Positions 1 through 24,099 of a DNA stretch of 33,712 nucleotides are shown in pieces. The position numbers were made by a program, and so were the translations under genes. How positions within the stretch are numbered: position 1 is the first letter of the stretch; each line of letters begins with the position of its first letter. A model generated the notes under the pieces. The model ran no database searches. It was not told the origin of the DNA and was given only the letters and a program-made list of their open reading frames with translations. This stretch comes from Myxococcales bacterium (lineage in GTDB: Bacteria > Myxococcota_A > UBA9042 > JABWCM01), in NCBI GenBank assembly GCA_013360285.1, contig JABWCM010000122.1, forward strand, positions 1 through 33,712, in the 5' to 3' direction.

Positions 1-515
1 GACAGAAAGTGCCCAAAGACCATCTCCGCATTGAAGCCTACGGAACTATTGACGAATTGAACGCCATTCTCGGAATTGCACGAGTATTTAACTTAAGAGA
101 GACTACAGACGTTGCCGTCAGCGGTGAGATCGACGTTTTTTTACGGACATCTCAAAACAACTTGTTTAACTTAGGAAGTGATCTGGCAACGCGTGTTGAA
201 GATCGATGGCCTAACATGCCGCTGATTGGTGCCGCTGATGTCACAGCACTGGAAACGTTGATTGATCGCTGGAACAACGACTTGTTTCCATTGAATAGCT
301 TTGTACTGCCCGGTGGAAACCCGGTAAGCGCATTTTTGCACCAAGCTCGAACGGTGTGTCGCCGAGCGGAGCGGTGTATTCTGCGATTGTCAAGAGAAGA
401 ACAAATCGGCGAATACGTGCTTTCTTACGTAAACCGATTCAGTGATGCCTTGTTCGTGGCGAGCCGATGGGCCACGATCAAAACCGGAGCATCGGAGTTT
501 CTGTGGGAACGATAA
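1..515 (+). CDS. pduO: PduO-type ATP:cob(I)alamin adenosyltransferase, 5' end cut off by window
   Basis: This enzyme transfers the adenosyl group of ATP to cob(I)alamin to make coenzyme B12 in the cytoplasm. The frame is already open at the window edge and reads QKV-PKDHLRIEAYGTIDELNA, the family's second conserved block, so the first roughly 20 residues (TRTGDDGTTGL-type motif) lie outside the window. The GTG at position 9 is therefore an internal codon and not the start. The C-terminal signature ARTVCRRAER followed by SYVNRFSDALFVASRW is also intact; it carries the Arg residues of the PduO ATP/cobalamin site. The gene ends 6 bp before the stop of the convergent lipoprotein gene. Family assignment is firm; whether it serves B12 salvage or a specific B12-dependent pathway cannot be seen here. 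Confidence 0.93.
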   Translation, partial: QKVPKDHLRIEAYGTIDELNAILGIARVFNLRETTDVAVSGEIDVFLRTSQNNLFNLGSDLATRVEDRWPNMPLIGAADVTALETLIDRWNNDLFPLNSFVLPGGNPVSAFLHQARTVCRRAERCILRLSREEQIGEYVLSYVNRFSDALFVASRWATIKTGASEFLWER

Positions 516-3626: not shown

Positions 3627-6566
3627 ATGAAAAATACTCCTGTTATTACAACACATTATCCAAAATGGCTGATCTTGATTGTCGCCATATCTGGAATGGC
3701 CGCCTTTGGCATTACCATCGTAGTCCAGTGGGCGCGGCTGACAGCGTTGGACATGGTCCAAACGATCGCCCAAGAAACGAATCGAACCATCACTGTTGGC
3801 CGAATTGTGTTGGACCCTCGGGGTCGTGTCGACATTGCCAATTTGCGCGTCTCCGCACCGGGTGATCCAACTCAAGAAATGCTTGCCTTTGAGTCACTTC
3901 AGGCCGAAATCGATCTTCAGAAAGTGTTGAACGGTGAACGAATGCCGCGAAAAATAGTAGTGTCGGGATTGCGAATGGAAACCTACCTCGACAGCGGCTC
4001 ATATGGCGGGTTTGACGACGTTGTGGATGCGGTTCGTTCCTTGAGAACAAAACGAACAAATGACGTCCGCCCTACAACCGACGTGGTCCGAAATCTCCCT
4101 TCCCTCGTGCTTACAGACACATTTGTACGCGTTCACGTGGGAGAGTGGACGGCGGTTGGACAAGGCGAACTGCAATTGACCACGGATGCAGCGCAAACTA
4201 CGGTTGCCGCAACCGGCGTCCTTGATACCGGATCTCAGAGTTCTTATATAAGTCTACAAGGGTCCAAAAATACCAGCTCCGACCAATTCGGTGACTTACG
4301 ACTAAATATCGACCCACCGATCACATTGCCTCCACATCCACTCCTGTCAGGTCGATCCGTCACCCTAGGTAATCTTCGGTTGGTCGACAACGGCACATTC
4401 GAGTTGTCTTCTGTTCATATCGCGCAACGCGATGACCAAGACACTCAGGTTCAACTTGCGTCGCTTGAAGTACGCCCCCGTAGAACGGGAATTTCTCTGG
4501 ATTTGGACAGCATTGGCTCTATCTCTGCAAAGGGGGTTGTGGTCAAACGAAAAACGCAATCACTACAGGCGGGAAAGCTGACTGCATATTTTGCCCAAGC
4601 GAGTGAGGAAAGCCCACAAGACACGCTGGAACGACTTCTGTACCGGCTGACTCAGCTTGAATGCGACCATTGCGAAGCCACGGGCTTGCCAAATATCGGT
4701 ACAGTGGCAGCAAAACGCACTGAAATTATTGGAGAAAAATGGCGAAAGTCGGACCCACTACGCGGAATAGCGAAATTACATGTCGAACACCCCCAGGTGG
4801 TCATGATCGCTGACATTGCGGCGGGCAACGACGACACGATTGGCCAATTATTGCGTCCCGACAACGAGGAATCCGATCCGGACATCCAACCCCCCCCTCT
4901 GGAGGAACCTCCCCAGTCGCCAAAATCATCGCAAAAGGCCCAAAAACGCGACCAAATTAAACCCGCGGAAATTCGCCGAACGACAATTCCCACGATACCA
5001 CCTTCGTGGGTGCACGGATTACGGGACATCGACCTTAAGTTAACAAACGGCGACATTTCTGTAAGGGGAATCAGAGATCAGGACAACCTATTGAGATTGT
5101 CGGGAATCGACTTTCACGTCGATCGCGATGATGCGTCGACCGGATTGAAATTTACCGTGAGCGCAAGCCTCGAAGAGGACAAAGAACAAACCGCAGCACT
5201 TCATTTTTCTGGCGTTGTGGACGGCACCGGACGAATGTTGGCGCTTGACATTCGGTCGGCTGGATCCCGTCTGGCGCAGATGCTTGCCGGATCGTCGTCC
5301 AAAATCCGCGCCACAAAAGAGGCAGAACTAGGACTCGACGTAAGTGTTCGTCCCACGTCGGACACGGCGTATCGGATCGAGGGTGCGTTTTCCAGCAAAA
5401 ACATTGGTTTTGAATGGTGGCGAATCGCAAGTGAACCGATTTCCGGGTTTGAAATGTCTGCCGCATTCACCGCCGATTTTGACCCGAGCCTCGACAAGTT
5501 GGCGCTGAAAGTCCCAAAGCTGACGATTGGTAAACTCAATTTTGATGTATCGTTTGCTGCAGTTAACTTAAGGAGTACACCGGAAGTCGACCTGAAAGTT
5601 CAAATGCCGGTACAGCCCTGCCAACATGTGTTTGATTCTATTCCTAAAGCTCTGATGCCACGATTACAAGACATTCGGGCGTCCGGAACGACGTGGTTTG
5701 AGCTTTCGGTGAACGTGGACCTCAACGACCCATACGGCATGAAGCTTGAGTTAGACGGGGATCTGGAAAGCTGCGTCGTTACCGACATGGGTAAAGACAT
5801 CGACATCGACAAAATAAATCGCCGTACATTTGTTCACACCCCTGTGGTCAACGGAGAGGAACTCAACGTTAAAGTTGGACCCGGCACACGTTCCTATGTA
5901 CCTCTTAGTGCCCTTCCGACATATGTTCCGTGGGCAGCCATCGCAACGGAAGATCTCGATTTTTATAACCACAGAGGCTTCAAACTGTCGTTGATAAAAA
6001 GAGCCATCAAGATGGATCTGGAACACCAGCGGTATGTATACGGGGGCAGTACCATCAGCCAACAATTGGTTAAGAACTTGTTTCTGAGCAGGGAAAAGAC
6101 GTTGGCGCGTAAGTGGGAAGAGGCCATTATCACCTGGCGAATGGAACAAATAACTACCAAGGAGCGGATTTTAGAGCTTTACCTAAACTGTATCGAATAT
6201 GGTCCGGAAATTTATGGCATTCGTGCCGCATCAACCCATTATTTCGGAAAAAAGCCCCAAGATCTGACCCCTCTTGAAACCTCATTTCTCATGGGTCTTA
6301 AACCATGTCCTTCATGTGGATATCGACAATGGAAAAAACGAACAACCGAGAAATACTGGGAGGATCGACTCGCCTTTATCATGAAGCGGCTTCGTGATCG
6401 CGGCTGGATAACGCAAGAACAATTTGAAGCGGAGCAGGATTACCGCATGAACTTCTACTATCCAGGTGAAGGGTATCTTTGGAACCCGCAGCCGGTCCTA
6501 AATACTCCGGGCGAGACGCCAATAAATGAAGCGCCGGTCGAACCGACACCTGAATCACCGCAATAA
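3627..6566 (+). CDS. membrane-anchored AsmA-like protein with C-terminal GT51 peptidoglycan transglycosylase domain (979 aa)
   Basis: One N-terminal transmembrane helix (residues about 13-35) anchors a long periplasmic part. Residues about 40-700 resemble AsmA/DUF748-type beta-rich proteins (for example ITVGRIVLDPRGRVDIANLRVSAPG), with a Pro-rich linker in the middle (residues about 415-440). The C-terminal ~200 residues are a glycosyltransferase family 51 domain, which polymerises lipid II into glycan strands. Motifs present are ATEDLDFYNHRGF with catalytic Glu775, GGSTISQQLVKNLFLS, RKWEEAIITWRMEQ with Glu832, and KERILELYLNCIEYG. No transpeptidase domain follows; the protein ends in a short Pro-rich tail. 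Two CxxC pairs (Cys346/349 and Cys894/897) could form periplasmic disulfides. No clear ribosome binding site precedes the ATG at 3627. The domain call is firm; the biological role of joining the two parts is inferred. Confidence 0.88.
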   Translation: MKNTPVITTHYPKWLILIVAISGMAAFGITIVVQWARLTALDMVQTIAQETNRTITVGRIVLDPRGRVDIANLRVSAPGDPTQEMLAFESLQAEIDLQKVLNGERMPRKIVVSGLRMETYLDSGSYGGFDDVVDAVRSLRTKRTNDVRPTTDVVRNLPSLVLTDTFVRVHVGEWTAVGQGELQLTTDAAQTTVAATGVLDTGSQSSYISLQGSKNTSSDQFGDLRLNIDPPITLPPHPLLSGRSVTLGNLRLVDNGTFELSSVHIAQRDDQDTQVQLASLEVRPRRTGISLDLDSIGSISAKGVVVKRKTQSLQAGKLTAYFAQASEESPQDTLERLLYRLTQLECDHCEATGLPNIGTVAAKRTEIIGEKWRKSDPLRGIAKLHVEHPQVVMIADIAAGNDDTIGQLLRPDNEESDPDIQPPPLEEPPQSPKSSQKAQKRDQIKPAEIRRTTIPTIPPSWVHGLRDIDLKLTNGDISVRGIRDQDNLLRLSGIDFHVDRDDASTGLKFTVSASLEEDKEQTAALHFSGVVDGTGRMLALDIRSAGSRLAQMLAGSSSKIRATKEAELGLDVSVRPTSDTAYRIEGAFSSKNIGFEWWRIASEPISGFEMSAAFTADFDPSLDKLALKVPKLTIGKLNFDVSFAAVNLRSTPEVDLKVQMPVQPCQHVFDSIPKALMPRLQDIRASGTTWFELSVNVDLNDPYGMKLELDGDLESCVVTDMGKDIDIDKINRRTFVHTPVVNGEELNVKVGPGTRSYVPLSALPTYVPWAAIATEDLDFYNHRGFKLSLIKRAIKMDLEHQRYVYGGSTISQQLVKNLFLSREKTLARKWEEAIITWRMEQITTKERILELYLNCIEYGPEIYGIRAASTHYFGKKPQDLTPLETSFLMGLKPCPSCGYRQWKKRTTEKYWEDRLAFIMKRLRDRGWITQEQFEAEQDYRMNFYYPGEGYLWNPQPVLNTPGETPINEAPVEPTPESPQ

Positions 6567-12809: not shown

Positions 12810-13334
12810 CTAGATCGAATGATCCTGATGTGCCCACGCTTGAATGGTCGCCAGTTCGGCCGCCCACTGCTCGGAGTCCAGGCGAATGTTCATAAACTGT
12901 GCATATAACCCATCAAGAACCCCCTCCAACTCCTCGATTAAACCCAGTCGTTCCAAAACCTGTTCGTCCTCGTCGCGACTTAGCACCGCCGGCACTTTGA
13001 CACCAGACAAGGCCAGTTCCTCACCTTTGATATTGCACATCCACTCGCGCCCGTCTTTAATAACCCTCAGTCGCGCGTCTGCTACTTTTTTGCCCATTCG
13101 TATAGCAGCTTTGGCCTCTGCGGTTTCCGTCGGCGCTTCGCCACGTATCGAGTTCACCTCTTTGACCTTCTCCACTGCCGTATCCAGCACCAACTTGTCA
13201 TCAAACCAGACTTCCAGATAAGCACTTCCCTCAAGCTGAAACCTACCTTGATTCGAATCACTCCGATACCAAAGCCAAGTAAGATATTCTTTGCCCAAAA
13301 AGGCGGTCTGAATCATCCGGTCGAGTAAATCCAC
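12810..13334 (-). CDS. RdgC-associated protein, possibly the separated C-terminal half of an RdgC-like protein (174 aa)
   Basis: Reading FLGKEYLTWLWYRSD near the start, then LEVWFDDKLVLDT, and ending QWAAELATIQAWA, this resembles proteins or domains I associate with RdgC-like genes of deltaproteobacteria; I cannot name a domain with certainty. It is acidic, has no signal peptide or membrane segment, and is probably cytoplasmic. The GTG start has AAGGAG five bases upstream. It follows the RdgC-like gene by 54 bp on the same strand, so the two are likely co-transcribed and may act together on DNA. Treat the functional link as inference from position and remembered family resemblance. Confidence 0.7.
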   Translation of the reverse strand: MDLLDRMIQTAFLGKEYLTWLWYRSDSNQGRFQLEGSAYLEVWFDDKLVLDTAVEKVKEVNSIRGEAPTETAEAKAAIRMGKKVADARLRVIKDGREWMCNIKGEELALSGVKVPAVLSRDEDEQVLERLGLIEELEGVLDGLYAQFMNIRLDSEQWAAELATIQAWAHQDHSI

Positions 13335-13388: not shown

Positions 13389-14015
13389 TCAGGAAGAAAG
13401 CGACCCTACAAAATCCGCCGGATCCAACTTCAACGCCCGGTCAGACATTTCGTCGGACAAACCGACGTCTGCCATTGCGGTATACGGCGTTCGCGGTACC
13501 AGGCGCAGCCCAAAAGTATCAAAAAAGACCTCCGTAAACAGATCACCCATAGTCTTGTTGTGACTCCAGAACCGCACGGTTGCAGTCGAAACATCCCACA
13601 CCATGTCTATCCCTTTCACCGAAGGCAACAAACGTTTCCTCAACGTCTTGATCACGTGCTCTTTGATTTCTTCTTTGTCTTGTTTGCTTAACCGTTCCTT
13701 TTTGGTATCGGTCATAAACTCTTTCTCGGCCTGCCGAAGAACCAGTTTTAACGCCGCCCCGGGAACTTTCAGCGTATCGGTCCGCAGCGTCAACAAAATG
13801 TTGGAACCAAAGAAGATTTTCTCCATCGTCAAATCAAGGTCCAGCACGTCGCCAACGCCCACCCACCCAAAGGTCCTCTCTTCATCCGACGAAATATCTA
13901 TTTCTCGGAAAATCCGTTTCTGAATTGCCTCAAAAAATCGGTTTCGATAATCCTCGGGCAAATCCCCCACGACCCGGTATCGACGATAGGTGATGCTTCC
14001 AGCAAAAACGCCCAC
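13389..14015 (-). CDS. rdgC: RdgC-like recombination-associated protein (208 aa)
   Basis: RdgC proteins bind DNA without sequence preference as a ring-shaped dimer and modulate RecA. This protein matches the short deltaproteobacterial version: YRRYRVVGDLPEDYRNRFFEAI, then EERTFGWVGVGDVLDLDL, LRTDTLKVPGAALKLVLRQAE, ERLSKQDKEEIKEHVIKTLRKRLLPS (split across the alpha-helical middle), and FFDTFGLRLVPRTPY near the end. It is about two thirds of the length of E. coli RdgC (303 aa). The start is GTG at 14015, with GGAGG six bases upstream. It sits between the selenoprotein candidate (58 bp upstream) and the partner gene. The family call is good; a role in recombination control is carried over from the family. 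Confidence 0.78.
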   Translation of the reverse strand: MGVFAGSITYRRYRVVGDLPEDYRNRFFEAIQKRIFREIDISSDEERTFGWVGVGDVLDLDLTMEKIFFGSNILLTLRTDTLKVPGAALKLVLRQAEKEFMTDTKKERLSKQDKEEIKEHVIKTLRKRLLPSVKGIDMVWDVSTATVRFWSHNKTMGDLFTEVFFDTFGLRLVPRTPYTAMADVGLSDEMSDRALKLDPADFVGSLSS

Positions 14016-14073: not shown

Positions 14074-15525
14074 TTAATGATGTTCGCGGGTCTTTAGGTA
14101 GGGATACTTCTCTTTGAGTGCGTTGACTTTGGCGAGTACGTCCGCATGATCGGCGATCTCTTTGGACAACGCTGGATACTCATAGGTCACAAACGACCCA
14201 CTATCCGGACTCACTTCGGGCAACGCCTTCAGCTCCGCTTCGCGCGCCGCCAATTCTTCCTGGGACTGTTTAAGATTTTCAGCAAACCAACTCGAATCAA
14301 CCGCGCCAGGATTGTTTTTTTCCATGTCCTTGATCGCTTGCTGCCGAGATTCGATCCGCGTTTTGATTTCCTGGATATCCCCTTCAAGAACCGCACGACG
14401 ATTGGGGTCAGCAAAAGTGAACACTTTTTCCCCATCACGAACCATCAATGTCAATGCGCTGAAATACTTCGCCTTAGAAAACGCATCGGTAATATAAGTG
14501 TTCCCAACCACATTGGGGTATCGCAGCAGACTCTGACTATGGGTGCCCAATATTGCCGTGATTCCAATAACCGACCTTGCCAGCTCCGACGCCTCCTCCT
14601 GGGCGATATGCCCGAGGCAAACGATGACGTCGGCTCCTTCGGTTTTCAGTGCCGCCACTTGGGTCCGTGCAACTAGGTTCATGTCCAACAATGCCAAACC
14701 GTTTTTGGATAACACATCGGTTCGTTCGGTCGCCATCGGGCTCAACAACGCAAACACGCCGATGTTGACCCCGTCTTTTTTGACAATGACTCGTTCTTTG
14801 AACACGACCTTCTGCGACGCAGCGTCGACAAGATTCGACGCCAAAAACGGGAATTTCGCTTTTGACGCGAGTTTTATCAACTCGTCTTTCCCCAACGCCA
14901 AATCCCGCTCACCAATAGCCTGCGCATCGTGCCCCATTTCATTAAAAACCTCGACAATCATCGTCGCGCGATCCCGAACCATCGGAACTTCTTCAGGTTT
15001 GATGTTCGTCTGTTCGTGGAACAAATCTCCGGCATCCGCCAGAAATACATCCGTCCATCGAGAACGATTGTCATTGAGCCAAGTCGCTTTCCGGGCAAGA
15101 CCGCCCAGAGGATTGGCTTTTCACCCACACGGATCGGTTTCACCCAACATGTTTGCCATGTGGATGAGCCCAATCCGTTTACCCTTAAAATTCGCGTATT
15201 TGTCCATGCCTGACGGGATGTTTGGACGACGAATCGGCGGCGGTTTTTGTAACGTGGGTTTGGACACGACCGTAGCTGCCGGATCAACCGGTGATTTGTC
15301 CTGCTGCGTACCACCATCCGCCTGCTGTACAGCCGGTTCGGCAGATTTCGGTTCTGCCGGGAGCGCAGGTTCGGTCGGTGCAGCTTGCCCGGCGTCCGGC
15401 TTGGAAACCGAGACCTGGGTGGGCTTGGACGGCTCGTCGGGTGTTTGGGACGTACATCCCGGCAGGATGAAAGCAGCCGCCAGAACACCGGCGGTCACAA
15501 TCCTCATAAAATCAGAAACTTTCAT
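14074..15525 (-). CDS. candidate selenoprotein: 5'-nucleotidase/UshA-like lipoprotein with in-frame TGA (483 aa with Sec135)
   Basis: The ATG at 15525 follows GAGG and opens a lipoprotein signal (lipobox ILPGC, Cys24) and a Pro/Ala/Glu linker. Near residue 120 a phosphoesterase-type domain begins: RIGLIHMANMLGETDPCG, then TGA (codon 135), then KANPLGGLARKATWLNDN and LADAGDLF (Asp164, Asp167). This is the 5'-nucleotidase opening (beta strand, GGLARRA, DAGD) running uninterrupted across the TGA in one frame. Downstream are GHDAQAIGERDLALG, VICLGHIAQ (His306) and ILGTHSQ (His329), then a charged coiled-coil (about 395-440). Classic metal ligands are mostly changed: the NDxHG motif reads ANMLG and GNHE reads GERD. 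Cys133-Gly-Sec135 would be a redox-type pair. Without readthrough the product would be a 134-residue lipoprotein stub. A Cys-codon mutation or pseudogene is the alternative, but the frame is otherwise clean. Confidence 0.82.
15077..15118 (-). promoter_or_regulatory. predicted bacterial SECIS element
   Basis: Counting bases after the TGA, AGCCAA (+3 to +8) pairs perfectly with TTGGCT (+39 to +44). An internal loop follows, then a 7-bp upper stem: TCTGGGC (+12 to +18) with GCCCGGA (+25 to +31), including one G-U pair. The apical loop is GGTCTT (+19 to +24). With the U of UGA as base 1, the loop GGUCU occupies bases 22-26, the same as in the E. coli fdhF SECIS, whose G23 and U24 are read by SelB. 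The size (42 nt) and distance fit bacterial SECIS rules. A caution is that the loop also encodes the conserved Gly-Gly-Leu. Confidence 0.77.
15121..15123 (-). other. predicted selenocysteine codon (TGA, residue 135)
   Basis: The codon follows Asp-Pro-Cys-Gly and precedes Lys-Ala-Asn-Pro-Leu-Gly-Gly-Leu-Ala-Arg. From memory, related proteins carry a second Cys here (a PCGC-type motif), the usual residue that Sec replaces. TGA is a normal stop in neighbouring genes, so a general change of code is not the explanation. Confidence 0.78.
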
Positions 15526-18792: not shown

Positions 18793-19011
18793 TCAGCATC
18801 TATTGCGAAGCGGTTTGGAAAAAGCTGAATCACATCGGGAATATGGCGCAGGTTTTTTTCTGGGCAGTGGGGCCAAAAGCATCCGTCCAAGTTCGTTCAG
18901 TTATTTTTTCACAAACTCTCGAAGTGTCTGCGGAACTTTTGGATTTTGCATCGGTCCATCCTCACGGCATTTGTATTTTTTCTGTTTCTCAACACCACCG
19001 AGGATTGCGCC

Positions 19012-22000
19012 ATGAACCGTCCTTTTTGGGGATGTATTCTTTGTGTATTGCTTTTTACAAACCACGCAGACGCCAAATCGCTCCCCGAAACTACATTGGT
19101 CCTAAACAAGACGTGGACCAAAGGCAGTGTTACCGCGTTCAACGTGACCACTGCTGAGTCAACCGATTATTTTTCTGCTGTTTCGGTGGCATCCCAGTGT
19201 GTTGCGGTTTTGCGACAATCTGCAAAGAACTCCGCCGAGGGCTCCGAGTGGCCGTTGGTTGAGTTCGAAACCGATCCCGCCGCAGAAACAACCGTAGCGG
19301 TGGACGTGCCTACACTTCCGAAGGGGTCTTACGAACTCGCGATCACCTGTTTGTCCGCATCCGGTGAATCCAAAGTCACTGAGCACATTCAACTGACCGA
19401 CTCCACGACCATTTATATCGTAACGGACCGTCCACAATACCGACCGGGGCAAACGATTCGGGTGCGATTGTCGGTATTGCGCCCGGCGGACCATCGCCCT
19501 TCACCATCTCAGTCAGTTCAACTGGTTTTGCGCGACCCACGTAAAACCGCGGTGTGGCAACAATCCATTACCACCAATAACGCTGGTTTTGCGATAGCCG
19601 AAATCGGTTTAACCGATGATTTGCTCACCGGAACCTATCGACTGGACGCCAATGTGGGTGCTGAGAAAAAATCTTTGGAAATAGAGATCCGTGCCGAAAA
19701 GAACCCACCGTTTTCGTTAACGACAACGGTCACACCCAATCAGGCAGGAGGTTTGAACGTGTCGGGTACCGCCCGTTATTTTTACGGCGAGCCGGTCTTG
19801 GGGAACGCGACGGTGTATTATCAAGGCGACAACGGTCAGAAACAAGAACTCGTGGTCGACCTGGATTCAAACGGAGGCTTTACTGCAACCATTCCTCGTC
19901 CGATCCAGGATATTACAGACCCTGTTTTGGTGTCGGTTGAGGATGAAGCTGGGCGCCAGAGGTCACAAAACCTGGAATTACCCTCAGATAACCACGATTG
20001 GAGTCTGACGGTACTCCCACAAACCGACAAAATCGGTTCGGGCGCTTCATCTCATCTTACGGTTTGTACGATGAACCAGGCAGGGGTATTGGTGCCGGTA
20101 ATATTGACCATCACGTTACCCGGCCAGGCTACCAAAACATTGTCTTCGCAAGGAATCATCCGTGTACCGTTTGCCGCACCCGCGCCGAGACGTACGCAAA
20201 GCATCCGCTGGGAAACCACTTCATGGACAGTGGAATCGAAAACCATGCAAAAGGACCTACCTCAGTTCACCGACGCCACCACCGATGCCATATTGGGTGC
20301 TTTGGCCGAGTGTGTGCCATATGACGACTGGGCACAAACCAGCAACGAGACCACCAGGCACGTGGTTGTTACCCTTGAGCTGACCGGGCAATCGGTTCGG
20401 GTCCAATCGGTTATGGATGAGCCATTTTTTGACTCGCCGAACTTTTTGACCACGTTCCCTTCCGGCGTACGGGAGTGTGTTGAACGTAAACTGCGGCGGG
20501 TTTCTGCGAAATCATTTAACAAAACAACGGTTTTAATGCGTGTCAGTTTGAGTCCGAAACAAGTTGAAACCGTCGAGCCAACCCAGCAGTGGACCATTCG
20601 TGTACACGCCAAATCCACCGATGGGACCGTCAAAAATACATCGACTCAACTTGAAGTGGTCACAAACAACCCGACGAACATACCGATCCTGGAATCATCA
20701 GTCATCGATCCTGGTGACGAGATTCGACTGCGCCTCTTTAATACCACTGCGCGCCACGCCGTACTTGTGCGCCGTCAGGCAACAATTGCCGCAGGCCCTT
20801 GTGTTGCCGGCGCAGACGGATTTACGGACTGCCGCATTGTTCCTCCCACCGGTGTATGGGGTCTGGCCACAGTAGGAGTTGTGGATACAGCATCTGTCGA
20901 CGATCAAAAAACCACTCAGTTGAACATACATACCAAAACGAGCCTCTTTTTGCGTCCGCAAGTGGTTCACTTAACGATCGATATACCGGAACGAGTTCGG
21001 CCCGGTACTATGCTGTCGTTTCCGGTGCAAGCATCTTTGCCGTCGGGTCAACCGGCTGCCGGCGTGGGCCTTGCGGCATCGATCATCGACGAAGCGGCAC
21101 TGAGTCTGGGGCCGCGGTTTCCGTCGCTGATGGAAGCGTTGGCGGATGCTGAAAGTCAGAAGTTCGACCGGTGGGGCACCACATTCGCTCAGCTTTTGCA
21201 TACGCAGGCGGACAATTCTTCCGCCGCGTTGGCCATGGATGCCATCTTAAATGAACTTCCTACCGAATCCGTGTCTTTATGGGCGAACTCTACTTTGGGT
21301 GAACGTCGAGAAAAGGAACGCAGCAAACTCTCGTCATTGCGGGAACAAGTGTACGCAACACTTACCCAATACCCAGAAGCGTTTGTGAAGGCACAAAAAG
21401 ACGCTCAGATCTGTGATTATACGGTGTCGATGAACGATATTCTTACCCGTGCTGGTCTTGACGAAGGACAACGACACAACGAGTGGTCCCTACCCTATCG
21501 ATTTGAAGACGCTGAACGACTGGACCGTGGATATGTTTGTCCACATGTAGCGCGTCATGTCAGTTACCGAAAACTCGAAAAATTAGCGACGTGGCTCGAC
21601 GCCCTACCCCGCAATCAGCAGAAATTATTGAAAAAAAATCCGACACGAACCTGGGCCATATGGTTGGACCAACAACGAATCCCGACCGGCTTATTCATGG
21701 ACGCTTGGGGTCACCAGGTCACTGTTCGCTACACTGAACAAGGTTTACAGGTTCGAACAGCAGGTGGGGATGGTCGGTTGGATACCCCCGACGACCTGAT
21801 AATAGACGACGTGCTTCAAGAGTCGGTTGGTCATCATGGTTTTGGTGTAGCCGGTTATGGAATGGGCGCCGGCGGCAGTGCGTTTGGAAGCCGAAGTGTT
21901 CGTTCGGTCGCATCCATCATCCACGGCGAATCTGAGCCGGACGCCGTCGCCGCTGTTCGAAAACGTTTTGACGAAACCGTGTTGTGGTCCGCAGACACGT

Positions 22001-24099
22001 GGACCGACGCCTCCGGCCTAGCAACATTGGAAACGACTTTGGCCGATTCGATCACCCGCTGGGCGGTCACATTGGATGCCATGGCTCCCGACGGTTCCGT
22101 CGGTTACGCACAACGCCACGTGGAAACGTTTTTGCCGCAGTTTGTTGACCTGTCGGTACCCGATTATTTAACCGAGGGTGATGTTTATTTGATACCAACC
22201 CAACTCGCCAATTATACCGGGCGTGACCAACGCTGGACGCTGGCCACAGAGTTCGCGGGAACGGTTCTGCCGGTGGGCACCAGGACGGAACCAATCGCCG
22301 TGCAAACCGGTCACGTCGGCGCAACCACGATTGCGGTGCGCGCAGCAAAACCTGGCGTTGGAACGATTCGTGTTCACTTAATAGACGAGAACGGCGACAC
22401 GAAAGACACAATTGAGAAAACAATTCCAGTTGTTGCACCGGGACTTATACAACGAGCGGTCTATTCACTGCCGCGCGCCGGCGACCAGCTTATGTTACAA
22501 TTTTCGGTTCCTCCCAACGCACGACCGGAGACGTTGGGAGGCAAACTTCGGCTATTTCGGGATGCTCTGGATGGAGCGCGCGACGGGTTGGAGGGGTTGT
22601 TGCGGGAACCGAATGGTTGTTTTGAACAGACAAGCAGTACGACGTATCCCAACTTATTGATCTTAAAGCTGTTGGGGTCGCGCGAAGACAAAGCGGAACT
22701 CCGTGCAAAAGCCACGGATTTGGTGGCAAGGGGCTACCAAAAGCTCTTACGTTTTGAAGTCCCAAATGGCGGCTTTTCCTGGTTTGGCGATGCTCCCGCC
22801 AACCGCGTGTTAACTGCCTATGGCCTTGTTGAGTTTGTCGACATGCAAAAAGTCGTCCCCATTGACTCCAGCGTGATCGAACGAACTCAAAAGTGGTTGT
22901 TGTCTCAACAAAACCCCAACGGGTCGTTTTCACCAGACAAAAGTTGGCTTCACGATTGGAGCGCGGTGCAAGGCGAAGTGTCGACGACGGCCTATATTTC
23001 CTGGGCTCTGGCAGAAGCCGGACATCGTGGCACGTCGTTGACCAAGGCGCTGCGATTTCTTGAAACACATCGAAAAGAGATCCAGAACAACCCTTATTTG
23101 TTGGGTCTGTGGGCCCGAGCGGCCACCATTGCCGAAGAGGATGCTTCGTTTCCGCTACAACGTTTGCGTTCGATGACCCAAAAAGAAGGTGGTTTGGCAT
23201 ATGTGCCATCAGTCGGGAAAACGCTGCTCTATGGCAACAATATATCGGCACATGTTGAAGTGACGGCGTTGGCGGCAACAAGTCGGTTTTTGGCAAACGA
23301 ACCCACCATTGCGCACGAACACATCGAGTGGCTGTGGAAAAACCGCCATGCAACATACGGCTGGGGAACAACCCAAGCCACCGTCATGGCACTGCGGGCG
23401 ATGGCCGAAATCGAGCAGGGGCACCAGGAAAACACCGACGAGTCTACAACGATCCTATTGGACGGCCAAAAAGTAGGCACGATGTTATTAACAGGTGACC
23501 AGATACCTACATTTAACTTGGCGGAACTCGCCACAAACCTCACACCGGGTCTACACACTTTGTCGACAACCGCAAAAGCACCGGTCCGGGGAGAAATGAG
23601 ACTGACATGGTTTTCGAAAGAACCGAATGACGCAGTCAACACGGGTCTGGGCGTCGTGATGAGCCTCTCTTATGCCAACAAAACAACTGCAAAAAATGCC
23701 CAATCGTGTCCGGCGGGTACCGAAATTGGGGTACGGATTGGAATCCAAAACCCGACGGATACGACGATTGCAATGCCGACAGTCGTGTTTCCGTTGGCTC
23801 CCGGTTATATCGCCGATTCAGATAGCCTGGCGAAACTTGTCAAATCCGGACTGGCGGAAAAATACGAAAACCACGGTGACCGCGTGGTCCTGTATGTGTC
23901 CTCGTTGGCGGCAAACCAAGCACAAGTGTTTGATTTTAAAGTGGTCTCGCAGGCTTCGGCTATCGTCGTTCAACCCGCGGCGCAAGCTTATGCCTATTAC
24001 GACCCGGACACAGCCGGGGCGTCACGGTCCGAACGAATCGGTTGTACGGCTCAAGATGACAAACTGATATCAACAACCATTACAACGACGACACCGTAA
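19012..24099 (+). CDS. bacterial alpha-2-macroglobulin with thioester motif (1695 aa)
   Basis: Bacterial alpha-2-macroglobulins trap proteases through a bait region and a reactive thioester. The ATG at 19012 has GAGGA eight bases upstream and opens a signal peptide (MNRPFWGCILCVLLFTNHADA), apparently SPase I type, so the protein is soluble and exported; a frame-open ATG at 18946 is less likely. MG-type beta domains follow, including TDRPQYRPGQTIRV (about residue 137). A Gly-rich flexible stretch lies near residues 939-963, just before the A2M block WSADTWTDASGLATLETTLADS (in two halves). The thioester motif is GCFEQ (Cys1203, Gln1206), with the usual following alpha/alpha barrel (SSTTYPNLLILKLL, WLLSQQNPNGSF) and a C-terminal receptor-like domain. 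Its last 20 bp overlap the end of the convergent gene. Partner PBP1C is not in the window. Confidence 0.93.
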   Translation: MNRPFWGCILCVLLFTNHADAKSLPETTLVLNKTWTKGSVTAFNVTTAESTDYFSAVSVASQCVAVLRQSAKNSAEGSEWPLVEFETDPAAETTVAVDVPTLPKGSYELAITCLSASGESKVTEHIQLTDSTTIYIVTDRPQYRPGQTIRVRLSVLRPADHRPSPSQSVQLVLRDPRKTAVWQQSITTNNAGFAIAEIGLTDDLLTGTYRLDANVGAEKKSLEIEIRAEKNPPFSLTTTVTPNQAGGLNVSGTARYFYGEPVLGNATVYYQGDNGQKQELVVDLDSNGGFTATIPRPIQDITDPVLVSVEDEAGRQRSQNLELPSDNHDWSLTVLPQTDKIGSGASSHLTVCTMNQAGVLVPVILTITLPGQATKTLSSQGIIRVPFAAPAPRRTQSIRWETTSWTVESKTMQKDLPQFTDATTDAILGALAECVPYDDWAQTSNETTRHVVVTLELTGQSVRVQSVMDEPFFDSPNFLTTFPSGVRECVERKLRRVSAKSFNKTTVLMRVSLSPKQVETVEPTQQWTIRVHAKSTDGTVKNTSTQLEVVTNNPTNIPILESSVIDPGDEIRLRLFNTTARHAVLVRRQATIAAGPCVAGADGFTDCRIVPPTGVWGLATVGVVDTASVDDQKTTQLNIHTKTSLFLRPQVVHLTIDIPERVRPGTMLSFPVQASLPSGQPAAGVGLAASIIDEAALSLGPRFPSLMEALADAESQKFDRWGTTFAQLLHTQADNSSAALAMDAILNELPTESVSLWANSTLGERREKERSKLSSLREQVYATLTQYPEAFVKAQKDAQICDYTVSMNDILTRAGLDEGQRHNEWSLPYRFEDAERLDRGYVCPHVARHVSYRKLEKLATWLDALPRNQQKLLKKNPTRTWAIWLDQQRIPTGLFMDAWGHQVTVRYTEQGLQVRTAGGDGRLDTPDDLIIDDVLQESVGHHGFGVAGYGMGAGGSAFGSRSVRSVASIIHGESEPDAVAAVRKRFDETVLWSADTWTDASGLATLETTLADSITRWAVTLDAMAPDGSVGYAQRHVETFLPQFVDLSVPDYLTEGDVYLIPTQLANYTGRDQRWTLATEFAGTVLPVGTRTEPIAVQTGHVGATTIAVRAAKPGVGTIRVHLIDENGDTKDTIEKTIPVVAPGLIQRAVYSLPRAGDQLMLQFSVPPNARPETLGGKLRLFRDALDGARDGLEGLLREPNGCFEQTSSTTYPNLLILKLLGSREDKAELRAKATDLVARGYQKLLRFEVPNGGFSWFGDAPANRVLTAYGLVEFVDMQKVVPIDSSVIERTQKWLLSQQNPNGSFSPDKSWLHDWSAVQGEVSTTAYISWALAEAGHRGTSLTKALRFLETHRKEIQNNPYLLGLWARAATIAEEDASFPLQRLRSMTQKEGGLAYVPSVGKTLLYGNNISAHVEVTALAATSRFLANEPTIAHEHIEWLWKNRHATYGWGTTQATVMALRAMAEIEQGHQENTDESTTILLDGQKVGTMLLTGDQIPTFNLAELATNLTPGLHTLSTTAKAPVRGEMRLTWFSKEPNDAVNTGLGVVMSLSYANKTTAKNAQSCPAGTEIGVRIGIQNPTDTTIAMPTVVFPLAPGYIADSDSLAKLVKSGLAEKYENHGDRVVLYVSSLAANQAQVFDFKVVSQASAIVVQPAAQAYAYYDPDTAGASRSERIGCTAQDDKLISTTITTTTP

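Follow-up and report, generated by a model that had tools for sequence, protein, structure and literature searches.

Selenoproteins resembling UshA have been catalogued for some time. A family designated "COG0737, UshA-like, CxU" was tabulated in 2008 (PMC2398784), and the UshA-like family appears again in the tables of PMC9312934 and PMC13188914, in the latter with the NCBIfam model NF041198 (UshA_like_PCGU, an equivalog model). For a second family, UshA-like selenoprotein family 2 (NF049981), the motif is given as CxxU. We analysed a stretch of 33,712 nucleotides from a Myxococcales bacterium (assembly GCA_013360285.1, contig JABWCM010000122.1; hereafter, the window), in which a minus-strand gene is interrupted by a single in-frame TGA. 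The original prediction, made from the nucleotide sequence alone, had proposed that this gene encodes an exported selenoprotein with a Cys-Gly-selenocysteine (Sec) motif, and had known of no description of such a protein in this family. The Sec call is very likely right; since UshA-like CxU selenoproteins were tabulated in 2008 and an NCBIfam model exists, it is less surprising than it appeared.

The window protein (P0001, with the TGA translated) matched NF041198 with an E value of 1.1e-59 and 202.4 bits, under the curated cut-off of 275. As in the proteins of this model, PCG(U/C) is followed by GGL, PCGU lies at the same place in the same fold region, and Sec and Cys alternate among relatives. 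Unlike them, P0001 has no C-terminal multihaem part: the match spans positions 23-382 of the 519 of the profile, positions 383-519 are unmatched, and no CxxCH haem motif was found in the protein. Haem-type relatives have a C-terminal tetrahaem domain instead; three loci (L045, L059 and L169) extend to profile position 518 and score 298, 349 and 352. With NF049981 the window protein shares a related N-terminal region (E 4.3e-8), but it scores 32.9 bits against a cut-off of 140 and its motif is CxU. It also differs from SoxB thiosulfohydrolase (TIGR04486, 2wdc; 78.5 bits against a cut-off of 550). Judged from its sequence, the window gene is a haem-free relative of the catalogued UshA-like family that scores under the curated model. 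Full-text searches of open-access PMC papers on UshA-like selenoproteins and myxobacterial selenocysteine lipoproteins gave no account of a haem-free lipoprotein branch, and the 2008 set may include haem-free forms.

The frame running from 15525 to 14074 on the minus strand contains one internal stop, the TGA at codon 135 (15123-15121), and ends with TAA. The two same-phase frames noticed at the outset, of which the upstream one covers 15525-15121 with the TGA counted in, therefore belong to one full frame of 483 codons, and the further stops that would have pointed to a pseudogene are not found in it. The local reading is GETDPCG-TGA-KANPLGGLARKA. The downstream frame was said to have no good start before the domain; its earliest listed start is the TTG at 15024, already past the conserved GGLARKA block. 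TGA terminates 6 of the 23 main open reading frames (ORFs) of the window and is therefore an ordinary stop here, as had also been stated. On these grounds and those that follow, UGA codon 135 is likely read as Sec.

P0001 was searched in 282 genomes of the phylum and gave a match in 211. The better matches from these 211 genomes, the window's own included, make up a set of 126 aligned loci, weaker matches lying outside it. At column 135 we found TGA in 60 loci and a Cys codon in 59 (44 TGC and 15 TGT); 6 loci have some other residue and one has a gap. Trp occurs there in a single locus of the 126, whose row lacks the CGC motif. Because TGA falls in exactly the same column in 60 loci and Cys in 59, its placement is beyond chance. 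The homologues carry PCGC or PCGU at this place, which agrees with the PCGC that the original prediction had given for related bacterial proteins. Cys133 is kept in 58 of the 60 TGA rows and in 58 of the 59 Cys rows. A tree of 118 rows, from which one short row was left out, requires at least 10 changes between Sec and Cys, 6 of which are forced by supported branches. The sister of the window gene among the tree rows is a Cys paralogue from its own genome (C309; 37% identity, Shimodaira-Hasegawa-like approximate likelihood ratio support 99). This paralogue (L136, 12292-13722) adjoins genes that by eye resemble M48 peptidase and LexA, with dnaX/recR-like genes on one side and translesion polymerase-like genes on the other.

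Bacterial selenocysteine insertion sequences (bSECIS) are modelled in PMC13188914 as hairpins with a loop of 3-9 nt, an upper stem of 4-16 bp, G in the first two loop positions, a distance of 16-37 nt from the UGA and a minimum free energy of -7.5 kcal/mol or lower. The hairpin predicted after the window TGA falls within these limits, with a GUCU loop, 8 bp and a spacing of 19 nt; the 46 nt from the UGA gave -18.0 kcal/mol (z -2.43), and 2 of 200 shuffles were equally stable. The model was satisfied by 52 of 60 TGA rows as compared to 16 of 59 Cys rows, and, when a (G)GUC loop was also demanded, by 50 of 60 as compared to 0 of 59. The Gly-Gly-Leu motif of the protein codes for this loop. The motif is shared by 27 of 58 Cys rows (L119, which has no GG motif, is omitted from the codon count), and among GGL rows only, GGUCU was present in 59 of 60 TGA rows and in 8 of 27 Cys rows (Fisher 5.6e-12, kinship ignored); the same-genome Cys paralogue codes GGL as GGA GGA TTG. 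When kinship was corrected for, on average 3.5 of 6 pairs agreed for GGT and none was opposed. No Rfam family matched the window at gathering thresholds, and the SECIS is therefore called from its folding and from codon usage in the loop.

A pattern with the third base left free in the motif codons was searched in named genomes and returned 110 stretches; one of them (L168, core match absent) was dropped from the pattern counts, leaving 109 loci. The second Gly is GGT in 104 of these. In all 109 the frame stays open across the examined span of 20 preceding and 120 following codons, within the limits of each locus, and -7.5 kcal/mol or lower was reached by 100 of the 108 folded stretches. Since 26 of the loci overlap the first, 126-locus set, the other 83 were also counted separately and had GGT in 79 (background, 217 of 677 Gly codons). 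Among 80 listed titles, 47 name Neomarinimicrobiota or Marinimicrobia, and most others name Myxococcales, Deltaproteobacteria or no group. A repeat protein search with a 15-row profile again returned 36 proteins, few of them new; P0001 had no relatives in one set of genome contigs, and the PCGU pattern had no match in viral contigs.

The original prediction had also called for a check of the genome for selA, selB, selD and tRNA-Sec. In the source genome (7.15 Mb in 430 contigs, the window being contig 206) selB, selC, selD and most of selA were found. SelB scored above the family cut-off, as did SelA, which is partial (positions 135-451) and cut by a contig end. The tRNA-Sec, also above its cut-off and with anticodon UCA according to ARAGORN, is located on another contig; in the window itself ARAGORN found no tRNA. 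SelD has a single in-frame TGA of its own; it is likely a selenoprotein itself (L019, C181; CG-TGA), with a downstream hairpin that carries a GGUC loop.

We consider it highly probable that UGA135 encodes Sec and that the gene product, 483 residues long and with predicted export and membrane anchoring, carries a likely redox-active Cys-Gly-Sec on a predicted 5'-nucleotidase fold from which most metal ligands are missing. A lipobox-like Ile-Leu-Pro-Gly-Cys is present, but its Pro at -2 departs from the usual lipobox pattern, and for this reason "lipoprotein" is a prediction; the same-genome paralogue has FIGGC. The identification as a 5'-nucleotidase was right in part. The predicted model has the metallophosphoesterase fold, with Cys133 and Sec135 in the loop after strand 116-122. 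When the functional columns were defined by UshA residue numbers, the ligand columns of P0001 read N, L, D, E, H, H and Q, and those of the catalytic His-Asp pair R and A. Most metal ligands and the catalytic pair of 5'-nucleotidases (UshA, CD73, Thermus thermophilus 2z1a) are therefore replaced and "5'-nucleotidase" is a label for the fold only; unlike those enzymes, P0001 has no Pfam match to the C-terminal nucleotide-binding domain PF02872 at E 0.001.

As for the mechanism, in silico folding suggests that SelB with Sec-tRNA would bind the hairpin right after the UGA via the GGUCU loop. The N-terminal signal would then direct the full-length protein out of the cytoplasm, and Cys24 would be lipidated. 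The calcineurin-like fold would be kept, and its first-strand loop, which carries two metal ligands in 5'-nucleotidases, would now bear Cys133-Gly-Sec135. The chemistry is therefore likely to be thiol/selenol redox or sulfur transfer, and not phosphate hydrolysis.

Genes that directly follow many haem-free relatives in other phyla, together with one pair in the source genome, are the reason why we propose a rhodanese and a MauE/DoxX-type membrane protein as likely partners of the window protein, with which they may cooperate. By tblastn, rhodanese-like and MauE/DoxX-like genes were both present in 44 of the 110 pattern loci, the two families being confirmed on one protein each. All 44 linked loci encode the haem-free form: their stop comes 331-357 residues after Sec, and they have no CxxCH. 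The other 65 pattern loci comprise 35 that are haem-free with a stop, 12 that reach the end of the sequence with neither stop nor haem motif, and 18 with at least four haem motifs. Within the first 80 loci, the start of the rhodanese gene lies between -42 and +45 bases from the end of the selenoprotein gene in 31 of 34 cases, and MauE then lies at 428-527 bases in 28 of 31, all on the same strand. Of the linked loci with a listed title, 25 of 32 are Neomarinimicrobiota or Marinimicrobia. The source genome has a single MauE match, on contig 421 and above the cut-off, and a rhodanese gene (68 bits) lies directly before it on the same strand; the two proteins resemble the Neomarinimicrobiota pair (32 and 36% identity). 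In this pair (L265, 1414-2526) there is no gap between the genes, and it is located away from the selenoprotein gene. A SUI1-like gene is found upstream in up to 25 of the linked loci (L155, L214, L182 and 41 others), and the haem-free selenoprotein, rhodanese and MauE/DoxX loci look like an uncharacterised selenium/sulfur redox operon. More tentatively, a widespread haem-free branch of the 5'-nucleotidase/SoxB superfamily may have exchanged its di-metal hydrolase site for Cys-Gly-Sec and may form, with a membrane-anchored rhodanese and MauE/DoxX, an undescribed extracytoplasmic Se-dependent sulfane-sulfur/disulfide relay, the GGL motif doubling as the code of the SECIS loop. The function of the family is directly testable thanks to the Sec/Cys sister pair in one genome, the loss of the metal site from a hydrolase fold and the recurring rhodanese-MauE pair.

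Several findings weigh against parts of this reading. Two of the 60 TGA rows (L042 and L103) have Ser or Thr instead of Cys133, so the Cys-Sec pair is not absolutely required. Eight of the 60 do not satisfy the bSECIS model, the folding z-scores of the TGA and Cys groups differ modestly (means -0.60 and -0.16), and the codon test, once corrected for kinship, comes down to 6 independent pairs, a number too low to be significant; with the GGTC variant, one of the pairings contains an opposed pair. The lipobox is atypical. P0001 retains Asp167, His306, His329 and Gln331, and some metal binding is therefore possible. Finally, the rhodanese/MauE pair is absent from 34 of the 59 pattern loci with room for it and present in 25, the titled myxobacterial and deltaproteobacterial loci belong to the 34, and no such pair lies beside the window gene. 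The Cys row L091 has Ser at the position of Cys133, and in L144 residue 135 itself is Ser; these two loci, with L042 and L103, are natural variants useful for the study of mechanism.

Among the alternatives, the one that survives best, although we consider it unlikely, is that Cys-Gly-Sec serves to bind a metal or metalloid, for transport or detoxification, and not to catalyse redox reactions. CxU can serve as a soft-metal site, the predicted location outside the cytoplasm would suit such a role, and the two Sec rows without Cys133 speak against an obligatory Cys-Sec bond; sulfur or electron transfer is indicated instead by the rhodanese and MauE/DoxX genes next to haem-free members and by the haem domains fused to others. 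Slightly less probable is that the protein is still a hydrolase dependent on metal, either a nucleotidase or SoxB-like, in which Sec acts as ligand or nucleophile. The four retained residues would fit it, but their positions are not conserved across the 60 Sec rows (D in 26, H in 22, H in 12 and Q or H in 4), N and L replace the Asp and His of the first motif, E replaces the Asn of motif III, R and A replace the catalytic His and Asp, and Pfam detects no C-terminal 5'-nucleotidase domain.

Two deliberate products, a 134-residue lipoprotein that terminates at the TGA and a downstream protein with a start of its own, are improbable: termination generally competes with Sec insertion and the downstream TTG exists, but the TGA lies inside the conserved domain, a separate downstream piece would be without the first strand and the GGL block, and Cys relatives are uninterrupted at this place. 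A true stop, in a pseudogene or through a sequencing error, is less probable still. The protein database does list the downstream part alone (P0002, 302 aa); however, the stop is a lone one, 119 of the 126 loci (its own included) have TGA or Cys in the same column, the SECIS codons are constrained and the Sec machinery is present. Moreover, the entries for P0003 (87% identical) and for P0004 and P0005 (45% identical) are also 302-326 aa long, which fits a shared TGA. As the window gene and its three closest other entries are all listed as such pieces, haem-free members are likely mis-annotated as truncated. The frame would likewise stay open if reassignment or suppression made the TGA a codon for Trp or some other standard residue, but this is hardly credible given that TGA ends other ORFs of the window, that tRNA-Sec is present and that relatives have Cys here, not Trp.

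The features of the locus, read under the preferred interpretation of UGA135 as Sec, are collected in Table 1.

Table 1. Positions, in the window, of the UshA-like gene, its predicted parts and the two genes that follow it.
Feature	Position	Strand	Remarks
UshA-like selenoprotein gene	14074..15525	-	483 sense codons, UGA being codon 135, then TAA; NF041198 match
In-frame TGA, likely Sec135 of Cys133-Gly134-Sec135	15121..15123	-	Alignment column with 60 TGA and 59 Cys among the 126 loci
Predicted bacterial SECIS hairpin	15078..15117	-	4-nt apical loop GUCU within GGUCU; 8-bp upper stem; 19 nt from UGA to loop
Predicted signal peptide and lipobox-like ILPGC (Cys24)	15454..15525	-	Sequence reading; model helix 4-18, low confidence
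Pro/Ala/Lys-rich linker, residues 25-115	15181..15453	-	Predicted local distance difference test (pLDDT) below 50 for residues 19-103
5'-nucleotidase/SoxB-like metallophosphoesterase fold with degenerate metal site, residues ~116-375	14401..15180	-	Predicted model
C-terminal long helical hairpin and small end	14077..14406	-	No CxxCH, no 5'-nucleotidase C-terminal domain, no Pfam match
Downstream gene 1	13389-14015	-	Same direction; RdgC match very weak, at 21.9 bits against a cut-off of 324
Downstream gene 2	12810-13334	-	Same direction; no match

The compared loci offered no useful conserved neighbours of the window gene; a frame antisense to it gave one match in this comparison, which was judged spurious, and a far ORF of the window (9-515) has relatives near two other loci. 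Elsewhere in the window, on the plus strand, 3627-6566 encodes a 979-residue protein with a weak, sub-threshold DUF748 region and a peptidoglycan transglycosylase domain, and 18946-24099 encodes a 1717-residue alpha-2-macroglobulin-like protein.
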